Positions 11,565 through 45,457 are shown, numbered from the stretch's first letter. The stretch is DNA of 45,457 nucleotides from Microcaldota archaeon (GCA_026982895.1 JALWQW010000019.1:80500-125956), one strand, 5' to 3'. Notes: generated by a model not told the origin, from the sequence alone. Program-made: numbers and translations.

Positions 11565-12815
11565 ATGAGTGGGGAGCTGAAAGAAGGGAAGAAAGGAAAG
11601 CAAATGGAACAGCAGCAGCCAAAGGCTGAGGAGCCCTTAGAAGAAACACAAAAAGAAAAACGAGAGGGGTTGAAATTGAAGAGAGAAGCGGCTAAGCTAC
11701 TTGAAGAGGCTAAGGGAGATTGGAAGAAGTTGGGAGAGGCCCTCTATGCCATTTACAAGCAAGATAAGAAGAAAGCCTTCAAGCTCGTTGGCATTATCAG
11801 CCGCGACGAGAAATTAAAGAAAGGAGTAACACTACTTGAATTAGAGGGTAATAGGGCTTACTTCGAAGAGTGCCTAGCTCACTTGGAAATAAATAAGCTT
11901 AATAAGGCCTTAGATGGTGAAGAAATTGGGAAAGCTGTGTTGGGCTTAGCTGCCTTATCTGGCTTAAAAGAGGTAGAAAGTGAGGAGGATGTAAAGAAGG
12001 TTTTCGCTATCTTTGTGTTAAAGGATGCGGCAAGGAGTTATGTTTGGGATGACCGATATACAGCAGCTAAGCTTATAGGAGAGCTTGGCTTACAGAAGGA
12101 GTTTAAGGCTGAGTTGATGCTGTTGATGTTTGATGGAAGCGACAATCAGAAGTGGATATCTGAAAAGTGGTACAAATTAAGAGAGTTTGTAGAGGATGTG
12201 TGGAAGAAGGCTGGGTTAGAAGATGTAAAAGTAGAATATATGAAGATGACTGAAGAGGAGAAAGAGTTAGTTAGAGGGTTAGTAAGAGAAGCGATGGTGA
12301 ATATTGATGAGTCAATGCGAATAGCAGCGGCTAAGCTTATAGAGGAGTTAGAATTACAAAATGAATTTAAGCCAGAGTTGATGCTGCTCATATTTGATGA
12401 CCTGAATAGTGTGAGAGAAGCAGCTGAAGATGCGTGGAGAAAGGCAGGCTATAGTGATGTGAGGGCTGAGTATGAGGCAATGGGTGAAGAGGGAAAAGAA
12501 AAAATGAGGAAGAAGATAAGAGAATATGTGAGGAGAGGTAATCAGGAAAAAGCACTCAGGGCCATAAGAGGGCTAAGCTTGGAGGAGGAATTCTTAGACA
12601 TCCTATTGGAGCTCGCCTACAAGGAAGGCTCTGGTGTTAGGAACGTGGCAAGAAAAGCCCTTGCCTCTTGGGTCAAAGAGAAGCGGCAAGAGGTCGAAGA
12701 GAAAGCAGTCAAGATAAAAGAAGGCAAAGCCCACCTAACCAACCCCTTCTCCCTTAGCGAAGATGTTAAGCTAAGCGAGGAGTTAGCTGTAGCTATGTCC
12801 TTGCTCTGCTCATAG
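11565..12815 (+). CDS. HEAT-like helical-repeat protein (416 aa), paralogue of 35550-38414 and 38521-40827
   Basis: Repeats [YTAAKLIGELGLQKEFKAELMLLMFDG] and [RIAAAKLIEELELQNEFKPELMLLIFDD..VREAAEDAWRKAG]; C-terminus EGKAHLTNPFSLSEDVKLSEELAVAMSLLCS. Confidence 0.85.
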   Translation: MSGELKEGKKGKQMEQQQPKAEEPLEETQKEKREGLKLKREAAKLLEEAKGDWKKLGEALYAIYKQDKKKAFKLVGIISRDEKLKKGVTLLELEGNRAYFEECLAHLEINKLNKALDGEEIGKAVLGLAALSGLKEVESEEDVKKVFAIFVLKDAARSYVWDDRYTAAKLIGELGLQKEFKAELMLLMFDGSDNQKWISEKWYKLREFVEDVWKKAGLEDVKVEYMKMTEEEKELVRGLVREAMVNIDESMRIAAAKLIEELELQNEFKPELMLLIFDDLNSVREAAEDAWRKAGYSDVRAEYEAMGEEGKEKMRKKIREYVRRGNQEKALRAIRGLSLEEEFLDILLELAYKEGSGVRNVARKALASWVKEKRQEVEEKAVKIKEGKAHLTNPFSLSEDVKLSEELAVAMSLLCS

Positions 12816-35549: not shown

Positions 35550-38414
35550 ATGAGCAGCAAGGAAGAGCTGAAGGAGAAGGTGAAAGGAGTCATGAACAAT
35601 GCGTTAAGAAAGGGAGAGCGAAAACTTTCCGAGGTCATAGATGAGATGCGGTGGCCAGGAAAAGAAAATAAAGTTGTTAGAAAACTGATTAAAGTATTGA
35701 GGAAAGCAGAGGGCGATTTGGAGAAATTGGGTGAATTCCTCTATACCTTATACAAAGAGGATAGTGAGAAGGTATTCAGACTTATAGAGCTGATCAACGA
35801 GGATAGCAAGCTGAGGAAGTTAAGGAGTATCATGATAATGCAACATAAACCTAAAAAGAGGTACCTTCTAAAGTGGCTGAGCTTTCTAAAGGACGAGGGG
35901 TTCAACTTTTCATTAGATGAGAAAGAAACGGCTAAGGCGGTGTTGGGCTTAGCTGCTCTTTCTGGCTTAAATGAAATAAAAAACGAAGAGGATGTAAAGA
36001 AGGCTTTTGCTGTAGCTGTGTTGAGGGAAGCAGTGAGAAGAGATGAGTGGTTTATACGGGATTACGTGCCTGAACTTGCAGATAGGTTAGAGATAAGGGA
36101 AGAGCTTAAGCCTGAGTTGATGCTGTTAACGTTTGATGATTGGTTGTCTATAAGCAGAGAAGCTAAGGTGGCGTTAGAGAATATAGATTTTGGGATGTAC
36201 TTTGTGAATGACAGATATAAGAGTATGACTGAAGATGAGAAAGAAAGAGTAAAGGAGTTGGCAAGAGATGCAGCGAGAAGTGATAAAGAGGCGAGGCAAC
36301 ACGCAGCAGCCAAGCTTATGGATAAGGCAGGAATATGTGGATATTTTTTACCTGAGTTGACGCTGATGGCGTTTGATAGTGGAGGTAATGGGCGAGAAGT
36401 ATGCTCAATACTCCCAATACTAGCAGATAAAGCAGTTTATAAGAAAATGAATAAAAGAAGTAGGGAGTACCTTAAGAGATTAGTAAGAGAAACAATGATA
36501 CAAAAAGGCTGGAATAAGAGATATGCGGCAGTTCAGCTTATATGGGAGTTTGGTCTATACAAGGAGTTCAAGGCTGAGGTAATGCTACTGATGGTTGATC
36601 CTGTGGAGAAAGTAAGGCGATGTGCTAAACGGATCGTCGAGAATAGTATAGGCTCCAAAGAGGTTAGAACTATATATAAAGGAATAGATATTGTAGATAA
36701 GGATCGTGTTAAAGAGGTGATAAGGGAAGCGGTGAAGAGCGTTCATAGCGAGGTACGAGAAGCAGCGGCTAAGCTCATAGGGGAGCTAGGCCTGCAGGAG
36801 GAATTCAAAGCTGAGTTAACGCTGCTGAATTATGATGGAGATATCGACGTGAGCTTTGTCGCTGGAATAACATGGAAGAAGGGTGGTGTTGGTGATTTGA
36901 TAGCTGAGAAAGCTTTACACAAAGTGTATGACAACATGAGTGAAAAAGAAAAAAAGCAACTAAAGGAGCTGATAAGAGAAGCAGCGAGGAATGAAGATGA
37001 GAATAGAAGATATGCGGCGGCTAAGCTCATAGAGGAGCTAGGCCTCCAGGGGGAGTTGTTAGATGTTTTAATGAGTATGCTCTTTTACGATGCCAATAAC
37101 GTTATTGCTGCGGCAATGGAGGCCCTAAGTAAGTGGGATGAAGAGTTGAAGGAGAGAGGTAGCAGAGTAATGGATGAGCTGGATAAAAGGAAAGCAGGAT
37201 GGAGCAAAGAAATGAAAGAGGGGATAAAGGGGGCTACTAAAGGCTATCCATACGAGAGATACACTGCAGCTAAGCTCATAGGAGGACTGAGCCTGCAAGA
37301 GGAGTTCTTAGATGAGCTGGTGGAGCTGAGCTTCGATAAAGATAGAGATGTGGCTACAGCGGCAGCTGAAGCTTTAGGCAAGTGGGATAGGAAGCTGAGA
37401 AAGGAGAGCAGTAGTGTGCTCGCCGAGTTGGAGAAGAGGCGAAAAGGTTGGGCCAAGAAGTTTAGGGAAAAAATAAGGGAAGGAGTAAAGAGTGATAAAG
37501 AACATATGAGAGAAGCAGCAGCTAAGCTCATAGGTGAACTGAGCTTGCAGGAGGAGCTTAAGCCTGAGTTGATGCTGTTAACGTTCGATGATGCTGAGAC
37601 ATTACTTCATGAAAGATTTATAATGTGGGTCGCTTGGGATGCATGGAAGAAAGCTGGCTTAGGCGACGTAGAGGCAGAGTATGAAGTAATGAGCCGGGAG
37701 GAAAAAGAGCGCATAAAAGAGCTGATAAAAGAGGCGGCGAGGGGTGATGACTGTGGAAGGCGAAGAGGAGCAGCTGAACTCATAGGTGCGCTCAACTTAC
37801 TGCAGACAACAGAGTTTAAGATGGAATTGATACTACTGATGTTTGACAATGTTGAGAGAGTAAGAGGAAGGGCTGAATATGTATGGGAAGAAGCTAGGTT
37901 GGAAGACGTGAAAAAAATATATGCGAACATGAGCGAAGAGGAGAAAAAGCAACTAAAGGAGCTAATAAGAGATGCAGTGCAGAGTAATGTGGCAGGAAGA
38001 AACTATGCAGCAGCTAAGCTCATAGGTGAGTTAAGCCTACAAAAGGAATTTAAAGCTGAGTTGATGCTGCTGATATTTGATGGACATGAAGACGTAAGAA
38101 AAGCGGCTGAGGATGTATGGAAAAAGGCTAAGTTGGCTGATGTAAAAGGTGAATACAAAAAAATGAGTAAAGAGGATCGGGGAAAGATAAGTAAGCTCAT
38201 TCAAGAAGCATTAAGAAGCGAGACTTGGAGCCTAAACAGAGCAGGAAAAGAGCTCTTACAGGTCCTAGGGCTGAATGAGGATCTCCTCTATTTATGGGTA
38301 AGAATAGATGAAGTTAGAGAAGGCAAATTCTCATTGGATAATCCCTTTGCCCCTTCCACCCAAGCAAAGCTCATCGAAGAGCTGCTCTTGGCGATGGCAC
38401 TGCTCTGCTTATAG
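35550..38414 (+). CDS. Large HEAT-like helical-repeat protein (954 aa)
   Basis: Eight or more modules with core [AAAKLIGELxLQEEFKxELMLLxFD]; DNA cores at 36310, 36532, 36769, 37021, 37270, 37522, 37774, 38014; tail EGKFSLDNPFAPSTQAKLIEELLLAMALLCL. Confidence 0.88.
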   Translation: MSSKEELKEKVKGVMNNALRKGERKLSEVIDEMRWPGKENKVVRKLIKVLRKAEGDLEKLGEFLYTLYKEDSEKVFRLIELINEDSKLRKLRSIMIMQHKPKKRYLLKWLSFLKDEGFNFSLDEKETAKAVLGLAALSGLNEIKNEEDVKKAFAVAVLREAVRRDEWFIRDYVPELADRLEIREELKPELMLLTFDDWLSISREAKVALENIDFGMYFVNDRYKSMTEDEKERVKELARDAARSDKEARQHAAAKLMDKAGICGYFLPELTLMAFDSGGNGREVCSILPILADKAVYKKMNKRSREYLKRLVRETMIQKGWNKRYAAVQLIWEFGLYKEFKAEVMLLMVDPVEKVRRCAKRIVENSIGSKEVRTIYKGIDIVDKDRVKEVIREAVKSVHSEVREAAAKLIGELGLQEEFKAELTLLNYDGDIDVSFVAGITWKKGGVGDLIAEKALHKVYDNMSEKEKKQLKELIREAARNEDENRRYAAAKLIEELGLQGELLDVLMSMLFYDANNVIAAAMEALSKWDEELKERGSRVMDELDKRKAGWSKEMKEGIKGATKGYPYERYTAAKLIGGLSLQEEFLDELVELSFDKDRDVATAAAEALGKWDRKLRKESSSVLAELEKRRKGWAKKFREKIREGVKSDKEHMREAAAKLIGELSLQEELKPELMLLTFDDAETLLHERFIMWVAWDAWKKAGLGDVEAEYEVMSREEKERIKELIKEAARGDDCGRRRGAAELIGALNLLQTTEFKMELILLMFDNVERVRGRAEYVWEEARLEDVKKIYANMSEEEKKQLKELIRDAVQSNVAGRNYAAAKLIGELSLQKEFKAELMLLIFDGHEDVRKAAEDVWKKAKLADVKGEYKKMSKEDRGKISKLIQEALRSETWSLNRAGKELLQVLGLNEDLLYLWVRIDEVREGKFSLDNPFAPSTQAKLIEELLLAMALLCL
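36310..38200 (+). repeat. Degenerate in-frame tandem coding repeat, ~74-84 codon unit
   Basis: Recurring DNA core 'gcagctaagctcatagg.gag.t.agcctgcaggaggagtt'; spacings 222, 237, 252, 249, 252, 252, 240 nt. Confidence 0.8.
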
Positions 38415-38520
38415 GGGGCTTTTAAGTTAAGTATATAAATGAGGAATATGTGAGCTGTAAAATTAGCAAGACTCATCGCTTGGACTTTATTTTTAAATAT
38501 TTTGTGTTGAGATCTTTATT

Positions 38521-40827
38521 GTGAAGAAGTTATTTAATTCCTCTTCGTCAAAGAGAAAGGTTCCAAATAAACACACTCTCCCTCCTGCTGAGGAAAAAAA
38601 TAAGAGAGTGGAAAAGTGTGCCTTAAGATTGGTACGCCTATACAGAAGAAAAGGGGAGAATGAATTATACAAAGAGCTCCTCAAGTTGTATCATGTCGAT
38701 GAGAAAAAATATGTTATTGTGTGGAAAGCTGTGAAGGAAAAATTACTGGCTAAAGGAGAAAAAGATGTGATAAGGCATATAGAAAATAGGTTGGAAAAAC
38801 TTAACTCTTCCGATAAAGACAGCTTATTTGAACATCACTCTATTTCAAAGTTTGTGGAGTTTGAACGGAAAAAGAAACCTGCAAGCACAACGCCTAAAGG
38901 AATATTAACAAAACTCTCTGGTTGGATAAACACCCCTTTTCTGACCTTTAAGAAGGTATGGGATGTTGTAAAACACAAAACATCTGTTCTTTTATGGAAA
39001 GTGATTGGTGGTGAGAAAGTCTTCCAGCTCATGCTAGCAGCACTCTCTTCAAATGAATCAGAAGCTAGATCAGCCGTAGAAAAGTTGAAGAACAGGAATT
39101 TATTTATGTACTATCGTATTGCTGAGAGAGAAAGAAAGGATATTTTAATAGAAAAATTTAGAGAGCGTTTACTGAATCCCACATCAGTTATAATAAAAAT
39201 TCCTGTGGAGACGAAATACATTTATGGAAATCCAGGCTCTGCTAGTGGTCGAGGACTAGAGGTTCATCATCTTAAGAAAATCGAAGAAAAATGGGAGGAG
39301 TTCACTCCTGCACTGTGGCTTACATATCAGCTCGATTTATATGATGAGCTTTCATCACCTCTCTTCACTGCGGTTGCTAAAGGACAGATTGGAGCCTTTT
39401 GGGTTGTGGAGAAATGGAGAAAACTTCTGTTAAGAAGAGGACATGATCTAAAAGATAAGTTTAGGTATCTCTCTTCCCCAGAGCAGGCTCAGGTTAAGCA
39501 GGCTTTAAAGGAGGAGTTCGGGAAGGTTATTAGAGGAGCTATAGTGACAGATTATTCTTCATCTTATTCCTCCTATGATGCTTCTGAATTTCTGAGTCTG
39601 GTATCTTGGTTGGGTTTACAGAATGAATTAAAACCTGAGTTGATGGTGCTGAAGTTTAATGGTTATAACAAAGTGAGGGAATGGGCCGAGGATATATGGA
39701 AGGAAGCTGGCTTAGGGGATGTGAAGAAGGAATACGACGAGATGAAAGCAGAAGAAGAGGAGAGAGTAAAAGAGCTGATAAGGGAAGCAACGGAAGGCAC
39801 GTGGGGAGAGGCTTACGGTGCCATCAAACTTGTAGATGAACTGGGATTGCAAAACGAATTTTTGAATATATTAATAGAGTCGGTATTTGATGATACATGG
39901 ATAGAGTTTAGTGAACATTATGACTCTATACCTATTGCTGCGCTTGATAATATATGCAAATTGGACAAGAGGTTCAGGAAGAAAGGTATTTCTGTTTGGA
40001 AGAGATTAGAGGAACAAAGGAGGATAAATGGAAAAAACAAACTAGAGGTGTTGATAAAGGAGAGTGGAAAAAGCGACAATAATGCAAAGAGACTTATAAC
40101 CGTTCAAGTTATAGATAGGCTCCATCTGCAGAATGAGTTCAAGCATGAGTTAACGCTATTAATGTTTGATGGAGATAACAAAGTGAGAGAAACTGCCAGA
40201 GACACATGGAAGAATGCTAAGTTTGGTGACGTGAAGGCTGTATATGAGGCAATGGATAAAGAAGAGAAGGACCAACTAAAAGGATTGATAAAAGAGGCAG
40301 TGAAGAGTAATAGCTGGGAGAGGCGAGCGGCAGCAGTTAAGCTCATACATACATTGGGCTTGCAGGCGGAGTTCTTGGAGGAGTTAGTATGGTTAGCATT
40401 AGACGACAATATAGAAGTAGCTGGAGTAGCGGATGAGGCTCTTGACAAGTGGGATGAAGAACTTAAAAAGGGGGGATCCAGTATAAGGATCGAGTTAGAG
40501 AAGAAACGGAAACAGCTCCCTCTAGAAGTGAAGGAGAAGGTAAAAGAAGCAATAAAAAGTAATGAAGAGGAGAGGCGCACAACAATAATTAAGTTGATAG
40601 CGAAGCTGGAATTACAAAGAGAGCTTTTAGACATTTTAGTAGAGCTTGTTTTCGACAAGAATCCCGACGTTAGAAATGCAGCAAAAGAAATACTCGTTCC
40701 ATGGGCTAAAGAGATGCAGGAAAGACTTACGGAGGGCAAAGCCCGCTTAGCCAACCCCTTTGCCCCTTCCACGCAAGCAAAGCTCATCGAAGAGCTGCTC
40801 TTGGCGATGACAGTGCTCTGCTCATAG
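38521..40827 (+). CDS. HEAT-like helical-repeat protein (768 aa), GTG start
   Basis: Modules such as LGLQNELKPELMVLKFNGYNKVREWAEDIWKEAGLGDVKKEYDEM and LHLQNEFKHELTLLMFDGDNKVRETARDTWKNAKFGDVKAVYEAM; tail EGKARLANPFAPSTQAKLIEELLLAMTVLCS. Confidence 0.86.
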   Translation: MKKLFNSSSSKRKVPNKHTLPPAEEKNKRVEKCALRLVRLYRRKGENELYKELLKLYHVDEKKYVIVWKAVKEKLLAKGEKDVIRHIENRLEKLNSSDKDSLFEHHSISKFVEFERKKKPASTTPKGILTKLSGWINTPFLTFKKVWDVVKHKTSVLLWKVIGGEKVFQLMLAALSSNESEARSAVEKLKNRNLFMYYRIAERERKDILIEKFRERLLNPTSVIIKIPVETKYIYGNPGSASGRGLEVHHLKKIEEKWEEFTPALWLTYQLDLYDELSSPLFTAVAKGQIGAFWVVEKWRKLLLRRGHDLKDKFRYLSSPEQAQVKQALKEEFGKVIRGAIVTDYSSSYSSYDASEFLSLVSWLGLQNELKPELMVLKFNGYNKVREWAEDIWKEAGLGDVKKEYDEMKAEEEERVKELIREATEGTWGEAYGAIKLVDELGLQNEFLNILIESVFDDTWIEFSEHYDSIPIAALDNICKLDKRFRKKGISVWKRLEEQRRINGKNKLEVLIKESGKSDNNAKRLITVQVIDRLHLQNEFKHELTLLMFDGDNKVRETARDTWKNAKFGDVKAVYEAMDKEEKDQLKGLIKEAVKSNSWERRAAAVKLIHTLGLQAEFLEELVWLALDDNIEVAGVADEALDKWDEELKKGGSSIRIELEKKRKQLPLEVKEKVKEAIKSNEEERRTTIIKLIAKLELQRELLDILVELVFDKNPDVRNAAKEILVPWAKEMQERLTEGKARLANPFAPSTQAKLIEELLLAMTVLCS

Positions 40828-40861
40828 TGGCTTTTTAACCTTTCCTGATAAGGAGAGATTA

Positions 40862-41461
40862 ATGGTCGAAAGAAATTCATTGAGAAAAATCACAGACGTG
40901 CTTCCCGTTAAAGCAAGGGGCAATGTGTATTGGCCCGACGAAGATAGCAAATTCCTTCTCTCTGCTGTCCTCGATGAGAGAGGGCTTTTGCTGGACATGG
41001 GCTGCGGCTCGGGGTTCATAGCCATAAACTACGTGGCAAGTGGCGAGAATAAAAAGGCTGTATGCGTCGATATTGACGAAGAGGCTTTGGAGGTTGCTAA
41101 GGAGAACGCGGATGAATATGGCTTTTCTGACAGAGTATCTTTCATCCGCTCAGATTTATTCTCCAATGTTGATGGCAATTATGATGTAATAGCCTTTAAC
41201 CCTCCTTATTTGAGCTTAGATGTCGTGAACGAGATCTCGCGGGACAAAGCCATCCACGACGACGGTGTCATAGAGCGCTTCATACAAGAGGCTCCAAAAT
41301 ACCTTAATCCTAGCGGCGTTATTTTCCTAGTAACTTCAACGGACCACGAGAGGAGCGACGAGATTCACAGCCTTTTAGAGGGGCTCGGCTGGAAATCGCT
41401 GAAAAAAAGACCTATGGGCTACGGGGAAGACCTCATACTTTGGCAGTATAGAAAAGAATAG
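40862..41461 (+). CDS. HemK/Mtq2-like N5-glutamine methyltransferase
   Basis: SAM motif LLDMGCGSGFIAINYVA; catalytic FNPPYLSL (NPPY). Confidence 0.85.
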   Translation: MVERNSLRKITDVLPVKARGNVYWPDEDSKFLLSAVLDERGLLLDMGCGSGFIAINYVASGENKKAVCVDIDEEALEVAKENADEYGFSDRVSFIRSDLFSNVDGNYDVIAFNPPYLSLDVVNEISRDKAIHDDGVIERFIQEAPKYLNPSGVIFLVTSTDHERSDEIHSLLEGLGWKSLKKRPMGYGEDLILWQYRKE

Positions 41462-41491
41462 CTCTTTTAATCCTTCTGCCCAAAAATATGC

Positions 41492-42817
41492 ATGGCCGAT
41501 GAGGAGTTAGGGAAAAAGAAGAAGGGTTCTAAGAAAAGTGGTTCCTCTCTAAGCACGATATCCCAAGCTCCTTTAACCGACGAGGAGAAGCGCATTCTTG
41601 TGAGAGAGGCCAAGGCGTTTTTAAGAGAAGTCGGCGGCGATATGGAATACTTTGGCGATGAAATGGGCAAGCTTTTCAGGAAAGATCCTGAAAGGGCTGT
41701 TAAATTGATGTCCGCCCTTTCCCATATGCCGAGGCCAAAACAAGTGTTTAAGCTCATGCCTATGATGTCCTCGTCTTTTTTGGACACGCTAATGGCGGAA
41801 AAAGCCGATGCCATCTTCAAAGAGCCCCGAAATGATATACTCTTTGGATTGGCCTTTTTCTCTGGAAAGCCGATAACAAATGAAGAAGATATTCTTAAGG
41901 CTGCTGCCTATAAACTCGTCAGCGATATAATTAAGAGCAGGGTTGAAAACTTCAACATGGACATCGCCAACAAACAAGTGTTTGAGGCTGTGGCTAAGTT
42001 TAAACTCTTTGAATTTCTCCCGGCTATATTCAATCCCGACAATTATAACAATGGATTCATACCCCTCGATAATATGATTCTATTCGTTAACATGCCGAAG
42101 CAGGAGCTCACCGACCCTGAGTTGAGGAAGGAAATAGCGGAGGTGTTATCCAAAAATCTTAACAGCTCTTATTTATCCAATAAAATATTGGCAGTGGTTA
42201 TGGCCGAAAAGCTTAACCTTTCCTCGTCGATACCGCAGTTAAAAGATTTATCGTCTGAAAAAAGGCGGGCTCTACTCATAGAGTTGCTTGAAGCTAAGCT
42301 CTCCGGCAAAGAGCAGAAGCCAAAGACAGGTATCTTTGATCATGGTTTTGATAAAGTTACTGTGGCTGTTATTATTAAGGCTTTCAGTATGGAATCATTA
42401 TACCCATATATCCTCATGCTCCGTTTAGATAAAAGTGATATGATTGGGTCGCGTATTGATGACGTTTGGTTTGATCTTCTTAAAACCCTCAAAAAATCTT
42501 CCAAGGAAATCTTCAACGACTTCTCTGAGAAAGAAAAATCTGCCATCATGGACAAACTCCTCGAAGCTTCTTCATCGCCGCAAAAAGGCCTTGCCATGAG
42601 AGCTTTGGCTTTGATAGATGAATTAGGTATTGACCTATTCGCCGAGCGGAAGCTGTTGGAGAACTTCCTCAACAATCCCTCTCCTGAAGTTGTTAAAACA
42701 ACAGCCACTATGCTAAATAATAGCTTGCCAAAGGAGAAATCCATAAATCCTCTTTCATATGTCGATAAGCCACACCTCTTCACATCTCTTTTCCGCAGCT
42801 TGAGAGATTTGTGTTAG
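41492..42817 (+). CDS. Divergent helical-repeat paralogue (441 aa)
   Basis: N-terminal similarity to the 416/954-aa proteins (FGLAFFSGKPITNEEDILKAAAYKLV vs LGLAALSGLNEIKNEEDVKKAFAVAVL); C-terminus INPLSYVDKPHLFTSLFRSLRDLC. Confidence 0.75.
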   Translation: MADEELGKKKKGSKKSGSSLSTISQAPLTDEEKRILVREAKAFLREVGGDMEYFGDEMGKLFRKDPERAVKLMSALSHMPRPKQVFKLMPMMSSSFLDTLMAEKADAIFKEPRNDILFGLAFFSGKPITNEEDILKAAAYKLVSDIIKSRVENFNMDIANKQVFEAVAKFKLFEFLPAIFNPDNYNNGFIPLDNMILFVNMPKQELTDPELRKEIAEVLSKNLNSSYLSNKILAVVMAEKLNLSSSIPQLKDLSSEKRRALLIELLEAKLSGKEQKPKTGIFDHGFDKVTVAVIIKAFSMESLYPYILMLRLDKSDMIGSRIDDVWFDLLKTLKKSSKEIFNDFSEKEKSAIMDKLLEASSSPQKGLAMRALALIDELGIDLFAERKLLENFLNNPSPEVVKTTATMLNNSLPKEKSINPLSYVDKPHLFTSLFRSLRDLC

Positions 42818-42847: not shown

Positions 42848-43432
42848 ATGGACCGCCTGCATGAGGCATACGATATTAAGGAGCACATAAAGAGTTCCAT
42901 GAAGCCCTTCTATAAGTCAAGAGGACATGTTGAAAAATCCCTTTACATGAGCGCTCCGCATATTTTCAATAAGATTTTTAAAGCAGCTGCGGATATTCAT
43001 ATAAATAGTTATTCCCTTGACACATTGATACGAAATACAATTAGGCGTATTGAATTCAAAGGCAGACATCCAATGAATAGGGCGTATGTTATATTTTCAG
43101 ATGTACCCCCAATAGAGCCTAAAATATATCTTTTTGATTATGGATTTAAGGCTATGAGAAATGTCGTCGTTGGTTTAGCTCTCCTTTCCCACGAGCTTTT
43201 TCATGTTTTCTATGGTTTGGAACGTGCTAGATGGGATATATCACCTAAAACTGCTTTTGAATATAGTATGGAGGAACTATCGGCTCTTCTCTTTGAGCGA
43301 GAAATTATAATGAAGTTTCCCAAGGCTCATATACATTCAGATAAACTTATAATATCTGCTTTGGAAGATGTCAATAAATTTATAGACCTCTACGCTCATC
43401 ACGATGAAAAGAGAATCATTGTGAAAATTTAA
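42848..43432 (+). CDS. Putative HExxH-type zinc metallopeptidase (194 aa)
   Basis: ALLSHELFHVFYG (HELFH) followed by candidate third ligand in EYSMEELSALLFERE. Confidence 0.55.
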   Translation: MDRLHEAYDIKEHIKSSMKPFYKSRGHVEKSLYMSAPHIFNKIFKAAADIHINSYSLDTLIRNTIRRIEFKGRHPMNRAYVIFSDVPPIEPKIYLFDYGFKAMRNVVVGLALLSHELFHVFYGLERARWDISPKTAFEYSMEELSALLFEREIIMKFPKAHIHSDKLIISALEDVNKFIDLYAHHDEKRIIVKI

Positions 43433-43436
43433 GCCC

Positions 43437-44165
43437 TTAAGCGAATAAATCATTTATTTTGTTTCTCAATTCAAGATATTTATGCTGCAGGTCTTCGAAC
43501 TCTTTCTCCTCTTCTTCGCTGAAACTGTTAAGCTGCCTTTTGGCATTTAGGAGCTGTATTTTTGATGAAACGACTTCCATCTCTTTAAGCAGTTTATTGA
43601 GCTCTTCTTTTTTGTAGCTTTTCATCCAATACAGCTTACTGTTGAAGGGATGAATTGCTGGCTCAAACGGTATAGAGCTTTTCAAGCCTTCCTCACTTTT
43701 TTCAACACCCACTTTCAATTTTATCAGCGGTTCGTGGAGAGCAAAGGCTTTTTCTTTATTTTCTTCATCTATAGCTTCAAGTAAATTCTCCGTGATTTTC
43801 CCGTTGTACAAGCTTTCTTTTATCTGCTCTTCTATATTAAGCTCTTCCCCTATTTTATACACTTTTACTAACGACGAAACCTCCACATAATTGTGTTGCA
43901 CGACAAAGGAGCACACGCGCATCTCTTCCTTGAATGCGCTGTTTCCCAGAGCTTTTTTCAGACTCTCTGTCTCCATAGCCCTTTCTAATTTTTCTAAACA
44001 TGGCTCCACATATTTGTGATGAGCAATTGTGTATTTCAGACTTGGCAACTCCACATCGGCGTTACTTCTATCACTTTCTTCTCCTTTCTGCCTTAAACTT
44101 TTCAGAAGCTTATTCCATGCAATTATGAATTCGGTCAAGTTCTTTGAGACATCTTCACCATCCAT
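43437..44165 (-). CDS. Hypothetical helical/coiled-coil protein (242 aa), overlapping the Lon-like gene upstream
   Basis: Complete ORF, 31-nt overlap with the 3' end of the 44135-45457 gene; coiled-coil C-terminus. Confidence 0.65.
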   Translation of the reverse strand: MDGEDVSKNLTEFIIAWNKLLKSLRQKGEESDRSNADVELPSLKYTIAHHKYVEPCLEKLERAMETESLKKALGNSAFKEEMRVCSFVVQHNYVEVSSLVKVYKIGEELNIEEQIKESLYNGKITENLLEAIDEENKEKAFALHEPLIKLKVGVEKSEEGLKSSIPFEPAIHPFNSKLYWMKSYKKEELNKLLKEMEVVSSKIQLLNAKRQLNSFSEEEEKEFEDLQHKYLELRNKINDLFA

Positions 44166-45457
44166 ACAATCATCCCCAATGCGAGCAAAATTATAATGGC
44201 AGAGATTGGTAAAAGGTCTTTATAAATAGCACCCTTATTTTTCTGAGTCATATTTTTCTCTTCAACAAAACTTCCTTCGTGTGCATCACTTATATTCTTC
44301 GGCGGTAAGCTCTCTACAAGTTTAGATAAATATTCCAAATTATTCGCCAGCCGCTCAATCGTGCTGTCTTCCTCACCATAAAAGTGTGCGTGGCTTCCAA
44401 AGACTTTTCCCCAATAGGTCGTGTAGTTTGTATAATTATAATATGAACTGCCGAGGTCTGCTTGAAGATATGCAGTGTAAAAAGCAGCTGTGCTATAATC
44501 GCCCTTTGCTGCGTTCTTTAAAGCTAATAAATAGAAGTCCTTGTCTTCATCCTCCAGTTTATCGAAGGACACATTGTATAATTGAGGCAAGAGCCATGTT
44601 TTCAACAATTCTTCATTAACCTCGCTGCCATTTAAATTGGAGGCTTTTGTGTATAATTCTTTACTGAAGACACACCATTCGTAGCTCTCAGCATAGTTGA
44701 AGAGTATGTATGTTTTATAAGCTAGCGTTGCACTCTCTACAGGCTTTGAGAACATGGCGTAAGCTCTGCCCATTCTAAAATTTGCAGCCGCCACATATTC
44801 GAAGTTATTCGTATTAGGAGTTATGTGCTGGCTAATTGCGCTTAAATTGGATAGGCATTCCTCTGCTCTTCTAGTGGTTTTGGCTTTGTTTATGTTTAGA
44901 TTGAACCCTTCTTCTAGGGCATCTCTCAATGCCATGAGCTCTGCATTAGCTAAGAAGAGTGTATTTGAGGCTGTGTATTTATATCCCATTGCAAATTCTT
45001 TTTCAGTTGTATTGTAGAGTTTGTTGTAAAATTTAAGAGCTTCTAATGGCAGTTTATCCTTTATTGCATTGAGGTCTTCCTTGTAAAGATTGCTGAGTTG
45101 TTTGTAACTGTCGTCTAAATCGTATAAATAAGGGGAGCTTTCATTTGGCAATTTATTGTCTATATTGAACAATCCACTTACATTTTCTTTGTATTCTCTG
45201 CCTTTTAGAATTCTCAGAGCTTCGTCTACACTTTTTACATAGTATATTGGGTAATCGCGATAAAATTCCTTTGCAAGAATATAATCATACCGTGAATTTA
45301 AGGGGATAATTAAACCCCTCTTTCTTGCTTTTATGGCCGCTTCTGCTTTTTCTAGCACGCCGCCGACGGGCAGAACGCTTCCATCAGGGCTTATAGCACC
45401 TGTAATTCCATAGTCATTTAACGGGAGGTTTTCATCGGAGAAGACGCTGTAAAAAGC
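44135..45457 (-). CDS. Lon-like (S16, COG1750-type) membrane-anchored protease, partial (runs off the window end)
   Basis: Reading frame open to the window end: AFYSVFSDENLPLNDYGITGAISPDGSVLPVGGVLEKAEAAIKARKRGLIIPLNSR (S16 signature with GGVxEK lysine); helical region; C-terminal TM ISAIIILLALGMIVWMV. Confidence 0.83.
   Translation of the reverse strand, partial: AFYSVFSDENLPLNDYGITGAISPDGSVLPVGGVLEKAEAAIKARKRGLIIPLNSRYDYILAKEFYRDYPIYYVKSVDEALRILKGREYKENVSGLFNIDNKLPNESSPYLYDLDDSYKQLSNLYKEDLNAIKDKLPLEALKFYNKLYNTTEKEFAMGYKYTASNTLFLANAELMALRDALEEGFNLNINKAKTTRRAEECLSNLSAISQHITPNTNNFEYVAAANFRMGRAYAMFSKPVESATLAYKTYILFNYAESYEWCVFSKELYTKASNLNGSEVNEELLKTWLLPQLYNVSFDKLEDEDKDFYLLALKNAAKGDYSTAAFYTAYLQADLGSSYYNYTNYTTYWGKVFGSHAHFYGEEDSTIERLANNLEYLSKLVESLPPKNISDAHEGSFVEEKNMTQKNKGAIYKDLLPISAIIILLALGMIVWMVKMSQRT

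Follow-up and report, generated by a model that had tools for sequence, protein, structure and literature searches.

HEAT-like solenoid proteins of a Micrarchaeota lineage and their possible link to a MoxR-like AAA+/vWA machine

HEAT-like genes of the window

Within a window of 45,457 nt (C19:80500-125956) from an 88%-complete, 1.01-Mb metagenome-assembled genome of Candidatus Micrarchaeota, four genes were found to encode related proteins of a HEAT-like family, which may serve as a variable arm of an ATP-driven remodelling machine encoded elsewhere in the same genome. In the following, this source genome is referred to as G000 and two genomes of the same genus as G001 and G002; the phylum comparison set comprises 301 Micrarchaeota genomes. 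The initial annotation had placed open reading frames of 416, 954, 768 and 441 aa on this DNA, and all four were recovered at their coordinates on the + strand. The first member (416 aa, 11565..12815), characterized by BLASTP, an AlphaFold model and hidden Markov models (HMMs) of repeat unit, N-cap and tail, consists of an N-terminal cap domain or N-cap (11628..12041, G000:C19:92127-92540; E=1.8e-49 with the N-cap profile), about three repeat units and a C-terminal tail (12711..12812, tail HMM) that reads NPFSLSEDVKLSEELAVAMSLLCS-COOH. The second and third members were assigned by BLASTP, Pfam and HMMs. The second (954 aa, 35550..38414) carries an N-cap (35655..36044; E=9.8e-47), nine repeat units and the tail NPFAPSTQAKLIEELLLAMALLCL-COOH (38310..38411), and the third (768 aa, 38521..40827), which begins with GTG, has five repeat units and the tail NPFAPSTQAKLIEELLLAMTVLCS-COOH (40729..40824) with no detectable N-cap. 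The divergent fourth member (441 aa, 41492..42817; BLASTP and HMMs) exhibits a significant N-cap (41564..41941; E=7.5e-17 with an HMM built without this protein), no detectable repeat units and a C-terminus ending in ...NPLSYVDKPHLFTSLFRSLRDLC-COOH; its divergent tail (42716..42814) retains the terminal Cys and is not significant with a tail HMM from which it was excluded. The cluster had been described as lying almost back to back, which holds except that a gene for a 199-aa methyltransferase (40862-41461; PF05175, E=3e-23) splits the 768- and 441-aa genes.

The kinship of the four proteins is far beyond chance. The 416-aa protein matches the 954- and 768-aa proteins with BLASTP E values of 1e-43 and 2e-43, and the 441-aa protein with E=7e-8 in a match confined to the N-cap. 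The proposed repeat core is therefore common to the first three proteins by BLASTP and unit HMM, whereas the 441-aa protein, for which the unit HMM finds no repeat and Pfam no HEAT match, is a relative by way of its N-cap; the N-terminal domain that the 416-, 954- and 441-aa proteins were thought to share was recovered with the N-cap profile in all three. Pfam assigned HEAT_2 (PF13646) and HEAT (PF02985) to the 954-aa protein above cut-off (2e-13 and 3.5e-9) and HEAT (PF02985) to the 768-aa protein barely above it (2e-5). AlphaFold models the 416-aa protein as an all-helical solenoid (pLDDT 79, pTM 0.73) in which residues 1-25 are disordered and the tail helix is placed at low confidence. The top matches of this model in the Protein Data Bank (PDB) by Foldseek were HEAT/ARM proteins, namely the PP2A A subunit, alphaRep and importin; every match was weak (E>1e-3, TM about 0.2). 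NCBIfam matches to "DNA polymerase III chi," "SspI" and "MAD8" lay far below cut-off and were set aside as matches of helix composition. A contig scan with the 416-aa protein as query returned no match, and comparison of the HEAT proteins with PADLOC and PHROGs yielded no meaningful match, no PADLOC defence-system model fitting them. None of the four carries a recognizable catalytic domain, as first noted; an ATPase and an HExxH-vWA protein are, however, encoded as candidate partners outside the window.

Shared ends, variable repeats and family distribution

Family members start with a stretch rich in lysine and glutamate, often containing a PLEE motif. The N-cap spans about 130 residues (GDWKKLGEALYxIYKxDKKKAF...VLGLAALSGLxEIxxEEDVKKAFA) and is followed by zero to nine detectable repeat units, which are of two types: one of about 78 aa (FKAELMLLMFDG...VWKKAGLGDVKxEYxxM) and one of about 84 aa (FLDELxELAFD...ALGKWDKELRKKGSSVMxELEKRKKGW). 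Core members end in a near-invariant tail of 34 residues (NPFxxxxxxxLxEELLLAMxxLC[S/L]-COOH) that had been overlooked in the first reading of the sequence. An HMM built from 13 strong tails recovered its own 13 at E values around 1e-17 to 1e-22 and no further protein under E=0.5 among 189 sampled proteins, while the chain ends in LC or LCx in 17 of these 189, every one a family member or candidate. The Cys is penultimate in most members, the last residue is variable, and the spacing from NPF is constant in the 13 strong tails. That every divergent member carries the tail was considered and dropped, as an HMM excluding the divergent members gave no statistical support and the terminal LC/LCx alone agrees. 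Variable repeat number, originally proposed along with shared caps, is borne out by the unit HMM counts and by the DNA repeats described below.

About ten genes of G000 are marked by an N-cap or a strong tail: four in the window and the others at C30, C7, C17 (two), C21 and C3, with extra candidates of 1408 aa at C3 and 230 aa at C7. Decayed remnants were found at C3:74.4-74.7 kb, C7:21.8 kb and C30:61.6 kb; the first (G000:C3:74396-74718, in L024) retains a piece of the N-cap interrupted by a stop and a piece of the tail, the repeats being gone. G001 possesses about eight members and one candidate, and G002 has no member. A search of 99 genomes with the 416-aa protein gave nothing beyond G000 and G001 at E=1e-4, and in the phylum set the N-cap profile found just one marginal match outside these two genomes (E=0.009). 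The family is accordingly lineage-specific and expanded, as had been suggested.

An AAA+/vWA core operon beside HEAT genes

Some members outside the window adjoin an operon that the initial annotation did not cover. On G000:C7 (L069), the order is a 229-aa protein, a 919-aa double-AAA+ ATPase, a 102-aa protein, a 1304-aa vWA protein, a tail remnant and a 428-aa HEAT protein, so that one HEAT gene directly follows the vWA gene apart from the remnant. On G001:C23, HEAT genes of 755 and 334 aa precede the core (227, 945, 108 and 1330 aa) and HEAT genes of 624, 325, 965 and 705 aa follow it, so that the core is enclosed by six HEAT genes in all, every one on the same strand. The N-cap and tail recur across dispersed members, and no copy of either is fused to a core protein.

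The ATPase shows a Walker A motif in each half (GPPGTGKT and GITQEGKT), and its Walker motifs are conserved; it matches PF00004 in G000 (1e-9) and the AAA_5-like PF07728 at 0.0003-0.0095, under the cut-off of that family. In homologues of the vWA protein from five genomes, HExxH is invariant and followed downstream by the motif N-I-x-[ED]-D-x-R-x-D, and the metal ion-dependent adhesion site (MIDAS: DxSxS, T, TD) is complete. The 229-aa protein has no significant match, VMAP-M2 (PF19965) scoring E=0.18 and thus not reaching its cut-off. Profile searches of the core proteins against the PDB gave nothing useful, and PADLOC returned generic P-loop matches for the ATPase. Alignment of the ATPase against viral contigs revealed no relative and hence no sign of viral origin. 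The core family is present in 5 of the 301 genomes. In G002 (L085, C82), the AAA+/vWA core adjoins ribosomal-protein genes on an 8.7-kb contig with no repeat neighbour.

Ankyrin and other paralogues at AAA+/vWA loci

In two other genera (G005 and G011), ankyrin-repeat proteins adjoin the same core family in place of HEAT proteins, the ankyrin neighbour in G011 being supported by a PF12796 match. A second type of AAA+/vWA-HExxH pair occurs in 14 genomes and a third in the single-contig genome G248; both are likewise often found among ankyrin or other tandem paralogues. At G248:C1:683000-740000 (L150-L152), the pair has on its two sides about 35 ankyrin-like genes in tandem, most of which overlap and which have the common start MWHKTPSKEELNAQLIEAAKAGDIENVKRL, and ankyrin genes were also located at AAA+/vWA pairs in G033, G092, G097, G055 and G076. 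On G223:C4 (L191, 996-9636), an AAA+/vWA-HExxH pair is surrounded by eight paralogues in tandem, each of about 185 aa and without a recognized fold. Whole-protein homology is not claimed between the HEAT-linked core and the type-2 cores found with ankyrin, since hhalign could align no more than the HExxH segment (24% probability). At a further AAA+/vWA-type locus (L179, G097:C26), a run of paralogues carries a short motif like DPFLxxLxxE and only some of them have ankyrin repeats, which suggests a constant start with variable bodies.

Comparison with known machines

In the parts of Kaur et al. (2020; PMC7159879) drawn on here, MoxR-vWA conflict systems have constant recruiting domains, also on dispersed partner genes, and HEAT and TPR repeats are listed among the effector-position domains; Micrarchaeota are not discussed in these parts. 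As far as these parts describe them, the ternary systems resemble the present one in coupling an AAA+ protein with a vWA protein (predicted from motifs here), in variable partners that share constant modules (for which the N-cap and tail are candidates here), and in partner genes that are both in the operon and dispersed. In contrast, no VMAP, iSTAND, FtsH or beta-propeller third component is shown for the HEAT-linked core, the HEAT proteins are without an enzymatic effector, and the core combines a double-AAA ATPase with an HExxH-vWA fusion. MoxR/vWA machines, according to the portions of two sources used, bind a client via the MIDAS and remodel it at the expense of ATP (PMC7159879; PMC9976466). 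The CbbQO and NorQD activases likewise pair an ATPase with a protein carrying a C-terminal vWA domain and MIDAS, whereas they have a single AAA module per subunit and one dedicated client (rubisco or NO reductase) instead of a repertoire of paralogues (PMC4660213; PMC9976466). CbbQO senses its client via the vWA MIDAS together with a C-terminal motif of the client, in which the penultimate residue and its position are critical and the last residue is free (PMC4660213). Midasin (Rea1) uses its linked AAA modules together with the MIDAS of its vWA domain to pull the adaptor Rsa4 off a complex (PMC4660213). Midasin has covalently linked AAA modules in common with the present core, as well as a vWA MIDAS, which is predicted in the latter, but is eukaryotic, has six AAA modules fused to vWA in one protein and uses an adaptor that is not a HEAT protein. 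This adaptor is a UBL-WD40 protein. With HEAT scaffolds such as the PP2A A subunit and alphaRep, the family has tandem helical hairpins in common, at the weak match level given above; unlike in these scaffolds, the N-cap and the Cys-ended tail are specific to the Micrarchaeota HEAT family.

Among open-licence publications, no paper was found that joins Micrarchaeota or DPANN with HEAT repeats, and the consulted parts of those on MoxR or ankyrin describe no such system. The fold is ordinary and the system context unusual. The initial proposal of an undescribed system is recast, as the family is better seen as the probable repeat arm of a machine that resembles known MoxR-vWA systems and is encoded beside members elsewhere.

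Proposed function and alternatives

With moderate confidence, the fast-evolving HEAT-like solenoids are regarded as the variable arm of a MoxR-like AAA+/vWA remodelling machine, serving it in recognition or as clients. The constant tail, with its penultimate Cys and fixed length after NPF, and possibly also the N-cap, would attach the HEAT protein to the machine; this tail-dependent docking is proposed by analogy, because the tail pattern matches the CbbQO client motif. The solenoid would bind diverse targets and set target specificity, and ATP hydrolysis might then remodel or extract the bound complex, as in other MoxR/vWA machines. The HExxH domain may cleave this complex, and one could speculate that the tail Cys acts as a ligand of the HExxH metal. 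If the link is true, this would be a receptor-repertoire system on an ATP-driven remodelling machine in which unrelated solenoid folds are swapped between lineages, and it would predict that docking depends on the tail and that the terminal cysteine plays a part next to the HExxH protein.

Reciprocal best matches between G000 and G001 loci were used to estimate evolutionary tempo. Sampled housekeeping proteins are 61-88% identical, compared with 39% for the ATPase, 34% for the vWA protein, 43% for the 229-aa protein and 40-54% for expanded HEAT members. The low identity of the core reflects either fast divergence or orthologous replacement, the two being indistinguishable here. HEAT genes of G001 retain DNA repeats of 234 and 252 bp with 69-82% matches, indicating recent internal duplication; the window copies retain no such repeats. 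The family diverges rapidly, duplicates repeats internally, leaves decayed copies and is absent from the third congener, all of which suggests that the HEAT arrays recognize a partner that keeps changing; the simplest candidate is a virus or some other rival, genetic or cellular. Least certain is a role in biological conflict, which is argued from tempo, turnover and the likeness to MoxR-vWA conflict systems. In a DPANN genome of about 1 Mb, the roughly 17 kb taken up by expanding repeat genes (ten members, 1.7% of the assembly) would be unexpected without a strong reason. More tentatively still, and rather doubtfully at present, Micrarchaeota may harbour immune-like machines of an AAA+/vWA-metallopeptidase class, in which an expanding repertoire of solenoid receptors (HEAT, ankyrin or others) determines the range of targets; constant ends would dock these receptors, and the Cys-ended tail would be the docking peptide or trigger.

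Several observations weigh against assigning the HEAT proteins to such a machine. All four window copies are far from the core, and only one of the about ten G000 members, plus a tail-only candidate, lies near it. The vWA protein of the HEAT-linked core has no Pfam VWA match, its vWA fold resting on motifs, and the structure model of the G002 homologue is of too low confidence (pLDDT 36) to support it. Not all members evolve fast, since the HEAT member beside lysyl-tRNA synthetase is syntenic and 82% identical between G000 and G001. Some ankyrin arrays lack an AAA+/vWA pair and some pairs lack an ankyrin array. Paralogues occur at 7 of 12 core and 4 of 18 control loci (p=0.052, suggestive only) and ankyrin genes at 5 of 14 core and 1 of 19 control loci, the controls being arbitrary contigs not matched for length and some core contigs being short.

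The syntenic HEAT member beside lysyl-tRNA synthetase would fit an ordinary cell function unrelated to conflict, with the AAA+/vWA pair acting as a chaperone in assembly or maturation and the HEAT proteins serving this pair as structural clients or scaffolds; NorQD, CbbQO, RavA-ViaA and midasin, in the parts of the sources used, mostly serve maturation or remodelling (PMC9976466; PMC4660213; PMC7159879). This explanation is considered unlikely, though the strongest of the alternatives, as core and expanded HEAT genes (34-54%) diverge much faster than the sampled housekeeping genes, copy number and repeats turn over, ankyrin replaces HEAT in relatives, and so few genomes carry the core family. 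The distance of most G000 copies from the core would instead agree with an independent, lineage-specific scaffold expansion that neighbours the operon by coincidence. Solenoid expansions are indeed common in the phylum (ankyrin genes in 140 of the 301 genomes), so that an ankyrin neighbour by itself is weak evidence; linkage to HEAT genes, found in two genomes, carries more weight. Given that linkage, with six same-strand HEAT genes around the G001 core and one directly after the G000 vWA gene, and given ankyrin neighbours of the same core family in two other genera, coincidence appears improbable. Micrarchaeota belong to the reduced DPANN archaea and presumably depend on hosts, and ankyrin and HEAT folds are frequent in host manipulation by bacterial symbionts, yet the least probable explanation is that the HEAT proteins are exported or displayed on the surface as effectors in contact with a host archaeon, as the lysine- and glutamate-rich N-termini have no evident hydrophobic signal segment (judged by eye, without a predictor) and the AAA+/vWA partners are predicted to be cytosolic.

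Neighbouring genes and a further locus

Downstream of the 441-aa gene, at a distance of 30 nt from its 3' end, a 194-aa protein (42848-43432, +) contains an HELFH (HExxH) motif; it has no Pfam match and, among 59 genomes, a relative in G003 only. Beyond the cluster, the opposite strand encodes two proteins of 242 and 407 aa without Pfam match (43437-45358, -). Elsewhere in the source genome (L148, G000:C27, 859-5990), genes for a McrB-like AAA protein (769 aa), McrC (PF10117, 4e-18) and an ankyrin protein (510 aa) are located side by side.

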